From: a virus
Reading direction: 5' to 3' (one strand)
DNA length: 35,382 nt
Virus record (IMG/VR): IMGVR_UViG_3300030328_002712
Location: 1-35,382 of that record
Each line of letters begins with the position of its first letter. The stretch's first letter is position 1. The notes under the pieces are model-generated. The model was given only the letters and a program-made list of their open reading frames with translations, was not told the origin of the DNA and did not search any database. Below, piece after piece: positions 1 through 9,413 of the stretch. The translations under genes and the position numbers were made by a program.

Positions 1-275
1 TATACAAAAATCATTTAAAAATAGGTTTTAAATACCTTTATAAATATAAAACAGTTTTTTATTCCTTTTTTTATGTGATGGAGAATCTGTATGTATTCTA
101 TAGGTAGTAAGCATAGATTGAGTATAGATTTAAGGTCTTATAAATGCTCTCAGTTCTTGTGACCTTTGCGAGCATAGCATAAGGACTTCTCTCTGTCAAC
201 TACAAGGATCGCAGAAAATTCACAATCCGTAACAATTTTTGCTATAAGAACATATATACTACTGTGAGTCTTATA
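1..275. other. Leader region without a recognisable gene
   Basis: I find no credible ORF here; the longest ATG frames have about 12 codons. The segment holds a late-promoter octamer at 39-46, T-rich runs at 54-73, and two copies of GTCTTATAAAT at 135-145 and 268-278, the second running into the dyad array. No tRNA-like T-loop was seen. It probably is regulatory sequence between an upstream gene and the array. Confidence 0.5.
39..46 (+). promoter_or_regulatory. T4-type late promoter octamer
   Basis: TATAAATA matches the T4 late-promoter consensus exactly. No gene lies within 340 bases downstream, so it would transcribe the array region or act in an unknown way. In DNA this AT-rich a chance match is possible. 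Confidence 0.4.
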
Positions 276-485
276 AATCTCGACTAGGGATTGTCAGGGA
301 ATCTCGACTAGATTCTTATAAAAGCTTGACATCTCGACTAGATTGAACTATAATCATTATATCACCAATCAAATCTCGACTAGATTCATGAACGACTACG
401 ATTACGAATCAACGTGGGACTACGAGATATCATGTCACGATTATCTCGACGAGACATATACACATATGCAGGATCTCGACGAGGA
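276..485 (+). repeat. Operator-like dyad array, six copies
   Basis: A 15-base near-palindrome, AATCTCGACTAGATT, is exact at 300-314 and 372-386, differs by one base at 330-344, and is extended by GG at 276-292. Two variants, ATCTCGACGAG, lie at 443-453 and 473-483; the first sits in a perfect 11-base palindrome at 444-454. The outer arms AATCT/AGATT are inverted repeats. Starts are about 24, 30, 42, 70 and 30 bases apart. One copy fills the spacer of a consensus promoter, which suggests binding sites for a regulator. No further copies were seen elsewhere in the window. Confidence 0.7.
326..354 (+). promoter_or_regulatory. Consensus sigma-70 promoter in array
   Basis: TTGACA at 326-331 and TATAAT at 349-354 are separated by exactly 17 bases. 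The spacer contains the third dyad repeat, so a protein bound there would compete with RNA polymerase. This is the best host-type promoter in the window, typical of an early phage promoter. Confidence 0.75.
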
Positions 486-6706: not shown

Positions 6707-6901
6707 ATGAAAAATGAAATCCACTACATGAAAAAAAATCCCGCAGAAATTTTTACCACCATAGAGACCGATCCAACCACTGGGGAATACTATACGATTA
6801 TACCCGAATGGATAATGAACGATATGAACTGGTACGAAGAGACAAAACTTAATTGGAATATTGATACAGAAGAAGTTATTATAACAGAGAAAGAAGATTA
6901 G
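6707..6901 (+). CDS. Small AbrB/MazE-like protein
   Basis: The 64-residue protein has a C-terminal half YYTIIPEWIMNDMNWYEETK followed by LNWNIDTEEVIITEKED. The order strand - IPEWI helix - W/G turn - strand - acidic strand with VII resembles a SpoVT/AbrB swapped-hairpin domain, used by MazE-type antitoxins and small regulators. No toxin gene accompanies it; the next gene encodes 47 residues without nuclease motifs. It may be a phage transcription regulator or an orphan antitoxin against a host toxin. The fold assignment is from pattern only. No clear ribosome-binding site precedes ATG 6707. Confidence 0.6.
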   Translation: MKNEIHYMKKNPAEIFTTIETDPTTGEYYTIIPEWIMNDMNWYEETKLNWNIDTEEVIITEKED

Positions 6902-9011: not shown

Positions 9012-9413
9012 ATGGCAATAAAACGGATATCAAGAGCATTTAAGGACATTAGCTTGTCTTTTACCCCTCATCCTGTCACAAAAGACCTTACAATTCTCAA
9101 AAATGAGAACGCAATTAAGAAATCTGTAAGAAATTTAGTACAAACAATCCCAACTGAGAGGTTTTTTAACTCAGCATTGGGATCTGAGGTACGTGATAGC
9201 CTATTTGACTTTGTTGATTTTGGTACTGCATCTGTAATACAGAACCAAATTCAAATTACACTTGAAAACTTTGAACCTAGAATAGATAATGTAGTAGTTG
9301 AAGTAGATCCAAGACCAGATTTGAATGAATTTGAGGTCACGGTGTTCTTTAATATTATTGGACAAGACATTCCTACACAAGAATTCACATTCATGCTCGA
9401 AGCAACAAGATAA
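9012..9413 (+). CDS. 25: Baseplate wedge protein gp25
   Basis: The 133-residue product matches T4 gp25 in length (132) and general pattern: an N-terminal DLT-type segment, then RNLVQTIPTERFFN, GSEVRDSLFDFVDF, and a C-terminal half FEPRIDNVVVEVDPRPDLNE with a final strand for assembly. gp25 is the sheath-initiator component of the wedge and resembles the type VI secretion protein TssE. Here it binds gp6 and the first sheath ring. The adjacent gene 6 starts directly after its TAA. Confidence 0.9.
   Translation: MAIKRISRAFKDISLSFTPHPVTKDLTILKNENAIKKSVRNLVQTIPTERFFNSALGSEVRDSLFDFVDFGTASVIQNQIQITLENFEPRIDNVVVEVDPRPDLNEFEVTVFFNIIGQDIPTQEFTFMLEATR

Follow-up and report, generated by a model that had tools for sequence, protein, structure and literature searches.

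A 207-base region near the left end of a 35-kb genome fragment of a T4-like cyanomyovirus contains an array of six dyad sites that, judging from their sequence and placement, are probably operators for a dimeric, sequence-specific DNA-binding protein, which would most likely repress an early promoter recognized by the host sigma-70. The analyzed DNA as a whole (35,382 nucleotides) is hereinafter referred to as the window. At the level of sequence, the site itself, its dyad symmetry, the helical spacing, the fixed placement with respect to the promoter, the conservation across cyanophage genera and the constraint at the DNA level within an open reading frame (ORF) are all apparent, and these features are described below along with the alternatives. 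Genes 25 and 6 of the window start at positions 9012 and 9414, and the best match to its gp25 among isolates is the homolog from S-SKS1, with 74% identity. The features of the window that are relevant for this analysis are:

277-287, plus strand: dyad site 1, ATCTCGACTAG; the 15-mer context (276-290) contains 3 mismatches
300-314, plus strand: dyad site 2, exact match to the 15-mer AATCTCGACTAGATT
330-344, plus strand: dyad site 3, differing from the 15-mer at 1 position; occupies the -35/-10 spacer, with the centre at 337 and the -10 box beginning 12 nt further on
372-386, plus strand: dyad site 4, exact 15-mer, 1 base short of the ATG at 388
443-453, plus strand: dyad site 5, within the ORF, ATCTCGACGAG, read as (Y)LDE
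473-483, plus strand: dyad site 6, within the ORF, ATCTCGACGAG, read as (D)LDE
423-428, plus strand: isolated half-site CGAGAT within the ORF; such half-sites make up most of the array of S-SKS1
326-354, plus strand: predicted sigma-70-type early promoter, TTGACA (326-331), 17-base spacer, TATAAT (349-354), 12/12 match; the layout is similar in relatives
171-199, minus strand: divergent promoter-like sequence TTGACA-17-TATGCT with an extended -10 TG
39-46, plus strand: T4-type late promoter-like sequence TATAAATA upstream of the array (late consensus as given in PMC2984593)
388-540, plus strand: gene A, a 50-aa acidic ORF (MNDYDYESTWDYEIS...LDE..LDE...LAYAHYA) from a family found with the array
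6728-6898, plus strand: small acidic protein of the AbrB/MazE fold (phrog_661 relative), a weak candidate for the regulator
9012-9413, plus strand: baseplate wedge gene gp25, a landmark, with the array located upstream

The core of the sites, ATCTCGAC(T/G)AG, is present in six exact copies on the plus strand (starting at 277, 301, 331, 373, 443 and 473; total span 277-483), in agreement with the first-pass annotation, which reported six copies within 210 bases; no further exact copy was found on either strand of the 35-kb window. Under a first-order model of the window, only about 0.003 copies per strand, or about 0.006 on both strands, are expected, and when the 15-mer was searched with up to 3 mismatches, no shuffle of the window reached the observed count. 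Thus, short dyad sites are repeated here above the chance level, as is characteristic of phage repressor operator arrays. The same annotation described the copies as mostly conforming to the 15-mer, which is generous given that two of the six are exact (300-314 and 372-386) and one more differs by a single mismatch. Its placement of one copy in the spacer of TTGACA-17-TATAAT is accurate (site 3, inside a 12/12 sigma-70 match), and the copy that it located two bases before the only ATG indeed adjoins the start of the small ORF, but the gap is one base and other ATGs are present. Both copies located in the ORF have G at the variable position of the core, which corresponds to the LDE codons.

The array is widespread among cyanophages. 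The exact 14-mer was detected in at least 119 IMG/VR stretches, most of which carry arrays of 3-10 sites, and two cores separated by no more than 40 bp were also found in at least 119 stretches; at least 70 retrieved loci, along with isolates from several genera, carry arrays of 3-10 sites, the loci being mutually related, so that these counts do not represent independent events. In particular, the array was identified in the isolates P-SSM2, P-SSM5, S-T4 and S-SRM01, the last of which comes from a freshwater reservoir, as well as in two single-cell-derived marine viruses. S-SKS1 possesses a variant array in which about eight half-sites ACGAGATA accompany two full dyads that occupy the usual positions; at about 151.3-151.5 kb of HQ633071, a series of nearly identical 29-nt (approximate length) tandem units (CTTATAAACCTTCTCTAATA...) is located upstream of the half-sites. 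In whole-genome searches, the sites form one cluster per genome except for S-SRM01, with three neighbouring clusters; S-T4 seemingly has two arrays because 9,513 bases occur at both ends of its record (NC_048049), with 99.98% identity, which is probably due to an overlap in the assembly. The array is syntenic across the carriers, being located roughly 5-10 kb upstream of gene 25 (6.6 kb in P-SSM2, 5.1 kb in S-T4, 8.4 kb in S-SKS1 and 8.6 kb in the window). Thus, the search of related myoviruses for the 15-mer that the first-pass annotation proposed finds the array in relatives, where it tracks the promoter, and the copies, clustered at one to three places, are neither scattered at random nor missing in relatives, two of the outcomes which that annotation had set against its own proposal. 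No array was found, either at the syntenic place or genome-wide, in nine cyanomyoviruses (ACG-2014f, S-CAM7, S-CAM1, Sf-FS3, MC09, ACG-2014d, P-SSM4, P-TIM40 and S-RIM2). Of these, ACG-2014d (KJ019057) contains no TCGA in 179 kb, compared to about 449 expected under the first-order model, a total avoidance that is absent from the other eight; P-SSM2 contains no CGCG. Secondary arrays of the same dyad, without an evident promoter, are found at the 3' ends of small genes at 88.1 and 90.9 kb of S-SRM01 (for example, a small gene ending in ...PTLDEIQF and stop), and similar 3'-end arrays were observed in three further loci. A search for the two-site pattern in 84,980 bacterial and archaeal species genomes yielded 102 scattered stretches, mostly from GC-rich bacteria; a host origin of the array was rejected because no cyanobacterium is among the matches listed (80 of the 102 stretches).

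The site is a 13-15-bp dyad that occurs in both orientations. The flanks beyond the search core complete the palindrome, with A at +5 in 84% and T at +6 in 55%, and among the asymmetric exact T-variant sites, 48 are in one orientation and 19 in the other. The distance between the centres of adjacent sites is about 32 or 42 bp (31-33 or 40-43 bp, intermediate values being rare), and the resultant of the spacings near 10.25 bp is 0.44, whereas none of 5,000 jittered sets exceeded 0.23. Such helical phasing would be compatible with cooperative binding, another feature of operator arrays, as is a fixed position of a site overlapping a sigma-70 promoter: a -10-like box is located 10-13 nt past a site centre in 65 of the 73 dissimilar loci, the start of the -10 hexamer peaking sharply at 13 nt (66 cases) and 12 nt (21 cases) after the centre, with the next site about 27-30 nt beyond the -10. 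The consensus -35 is missing from some arrays, and many loci have a poor -35; the divergent element TTGACA-N16-18-TAYGCT was detected in 43 of 90 loci. Outside the array, the observed to expected ratio for the half-site ATCTCG is 0.24-0.60 in array-bearing genomes versus 0.73-0.92 in array-less ones, which, for four versus five related genomes, is suggestive of depletion of stray half-sites where the array is present.

In the portion of the array that enters the ORF, the LDE tripeptide is encoded by CTC GAC GAG in 65 of the 77 cases, whereas elsewhere these codons account for 35%, 38% and 28% of L, D and E, respectively (Fisher p <1e-15 for each, with the kinship of the loci uncorrected); the ORFs in this test were taken from loci retrieved with the T variant of the core, a sequence that cannot code for LDE. 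Furthermore, the D/Y/N/H codon that precedes LDE ends with T in 62 of 65 cases versus 540 of 893. The codon bias together with the T-ending preceding codon indicates that the DNA site constrains the protein sequence and not vice versa. This test excludes a pure coding repeat, so that conservation is not explained entirely by a coding frame, a possibility that the first-pass annotation had raised against its own interpretation.

Gene A, into which the array extends, represents a family of about 100 distinct acidic proteins of 38-67 aa, with the consensus MYDDYDLDYT...LDE...DLDEDYARD..DY..LAY.HYA and without a match in Pfam or PHROG (best E 0.14-0.58). The gene A profile matches all four array-bearing complete genomes examined and none of the five array-less ones, that is, co-occurrence of the array and gene A is consistent in all nine genomes tested for both. 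The structure predicted for gene A, using alignments of the window and the IMG/VR loci, is of low confidence (mean pLDDT 60). Gene B (phrog_12516), encoding another acidic protein of about 50 aa, lies directly 3' of gene A in 86 of the 104 loci (for example, 85784-85981 in S-SRM01 and 150678-150830 in S-SKS1) and was not detected in the window or in P-SSM2. One of the small genes located downstream of the array (positions 2099-2662 of the window) encodes a protein that matches the endonuclease PHROG phrog_1111 (E 2e-10).

Operator arrays are already known as a kind. The cyanophage array resembles the repressor-bound operators and stoperators found in cluster A mycobacteriophages of the L5/Bxb1 type (PMC9283540) in that it comprises multiple identical short sites, one of them over an early sigma-70 promoter, with extra sites between and at the ends of small genes. 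In cluster A, the sites are asymmetric, bound by a monomer and distributed genome-wide, and the phages are temperate (PMC9283540), whereas the cyanophage sites are dyads, form one to three clusters and belong to phages regarded as lytic in which no repressor gene was found. Accordingly, the likeness to repressor or stoperator arrays that the first-pass annotation noted survives in part: the layout is present in relatives, tracks the promoter and is not driven by coding, and the secondary 3'-end arrays are somewhat stoperator-like, but the array does not consist of asymmetric intergenic sites dispersed over the genome in one orientation. Similarly to PeSL of T4-like phages (Arbiol 2010 and Comeau 2014, cited in PMC4503421), the array is a conserved cassette associated with an early promoter among small genes. 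As portrayed in that source, PeSL joins an early promoter to a terminator stem-loop, unlike the cyanophage repeat, which is a dyad array without an adjoining terminator; in the window, no intrinsic terminator was seen on the plus strand near 326-354, and the locus is not of the PeSL type. The motif is not described in the open-licence literature searched, and the comparative paper on P-SSM2 does not contain the word 'repeats'. In that literature, we found no description of a conserved dyad array of lytic T4-like cyanophages that is phased with a promoter and extends into a gene; its novelty is provisional because the search covered open-licence papers only.

The main rival to the operator interpretation is an iteron-type replication origin similar to oriE of T4, in which an initiator would bind the repeats and the early transcript would prime leading-strand synthesis; we consider it unlikely. 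T4 oriE combines evenly spaced 12-nt repeats with an early promoter and the small early genes repEA and repEB upstream of gene 6 (PMC3016281), and the array shares this arrangement, with its evenly spaced repeats, early promoter and small early gene upstream of gene 6; in addition, the maximum of the detrended GC skew in P-SSM2 is within 0.4 kb of the array. However, the array-less P-SSM4 has its skew maximum at the corresponding position, and the maximum of S-T4, S-SRM01 and S-SKS1 lies elsewhere, so that among array carriers it points to the array in P-SSM2 only, and skew was rejected as an array-specific origin signature. Moreover, an origin would be hard to reconcile with the lack of the array, at the syntenic place and genome-wide, in the nine cyanomyoviruses listed above, with the three arrays in S-SRM01 and with the exact placement of sites in the promoter spacer. 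The repeats of T4 are unrelated in sequence and lie inside the coding sequence of gene 5, with an antisense early transcript; in NC_000866, at about 79.4-79.6 kb, they are 24-nt coding repeats, and their even spacing may therefore stem from repetition in the protein, not from the requirements of initiator binding. Given the likeness to oriE on the one hand, and the differing repeats and non-specific skew on the other hand, an origin is possible but not favoured.

The remaining explanations appear less likely still. Activation by a phage or host factor that binds upstream and in the spacer and stimulates the promoter at some stage would account for the sites upstream of the -35 at 31-42-bp steps and for the poor -35 in many loci, as in activated promoters, but seems improbable: the perfect -35, 17-bp spacer and -10 in the window and several relatives need no activator, sites over the spacer and at about +17 are typical of repression, and the sites extend into the ORF. 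We assign a much lower likelihood to the possibility that these are recognition or autoregulatory sites of a divergent GIY-YIG endonuclease, in the manner of I-TevI autorepression, or a recombination hot spot. In 39 of the 104 loci, such a gene, facing away from the array, starts about 500 nt upstream on the opposite strand, beside the conserved divergent promoter, but this endonuclease, also a weak candidate for the regulator, is absent from P-SSM2, S-T4, S-SRM01 and S-SKS1, all of which carry the array, and thus is not found wherever the sites are. Where present, the gene lies at a near-constant distance, between about -1250 and -490 with respect to gene A, and encodes a long C-terminal region. 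Control of leader translation or processing by pairing of the repeats in RNA is more doubtful again; the repeats are self-complementary, flank and enter the ORF, and in one case abut the start codon, but the one-base centre of the dyads makes a tight hairpin impossible, no match was obtained in the Rfam and tRNA/tmRNA scans of the window, and the location of sites upstream of the promoter, their occurrence in both orientations and the weak folding of the array (z -1.54) speak against the RNA-processing alternative of the first-pass annotation. Plasmid partition loci, too, contain dyad arrays that surround an autoregulated promoter, which counts in favour of a centromere-like or packaging/partition site cluster; we regard this as the least probable explanation, with no partition genes recognized among the conserved neighbours and lytic phages needing none.

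Under the preferred interpretation, an operator array, dimers would bind on the same side of the DNA helix, both over the host-sigma-70 early promoter and downstream of it, occupying the -35/-10 spacer (centre at about -25) and the site at about +17, with more copies upstream and in the first gene. Once the protein has accumulated, cooperative occupancy would most likely repress the promoter, one that otherwise would need no help, and shut down gene A, along with gene B in the phages that have it, in the course of infection. Binding, repression rather than activation, and timing are what we infer here. The secondary 3'-end arrays of S-SRM01, without an obvious promoter, are not predicted by a simple promoter-repressor model, and the perfect consensus promoter could be kept for another reason, such as supplying an RNA primer for replication.

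The phyletic profile of four array-bearing versus five array-less genomes yielded no specific candidate for the binding protein: at least about a dozen families are found together with the array, and among those listed, there is no evident DNA-binding protein with the exception of the AbrB/MazE-like one. In this family, 12 of the 36 members match Pfam MazE_antitoxin, and the model of the 6728-6898 protein (mean pLDDT 86.5) adopts the swapped-hairpin beta-beta-alpha-beta-beta fold, with MazE and SpoVT as the closest PDB folds (prob 1.00/0.99, E-values 0.2-0.4). Thus, the window, 6 kb downstream of the array, and array-bearing loci encode a protein with the fold typical of the AbrB/MazE/SpoVT regulators. 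Unlike these regulators, the cyanophage protein is strongly acidic, and phrog_661 relatives are encoded in six array-less genomes too, including cyanomyoviruses, so that the family is not restricted to array carriers and the protein is a weak candidate for the regulator of the array.

The T4-like cyanophages lack alt, modA/B, motA and asiA, and control of their middle transcription is an unsettled issue (PMC2984593); the array bears on how these phages shut off early transcription. The carriers are viruses of ocean and lake cyanobacteria that apparently possess a built-in off-switch of the kind known from phages capable of dormancy. As a tentative extension of this interpretation, doubtful as a whole, lytic T4-like cyanophages could employ a repressor and a multi-operator array as a timed early off-switch, with the array penetrating and shaping the first gene, the satellite arrays serving as roadblocks to elongation, and the regulator coming from a family not yet recognized as DNA-binding. 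Gene A, for its part, is a clear case of a DNA site that overlaps and shapes a protein sequence. Because this conserved cis-element is present in cultivable isolates, namely P-SSM2, S-T4 and S-SRM01, the question of early shut-off in these viruses is directly testable.
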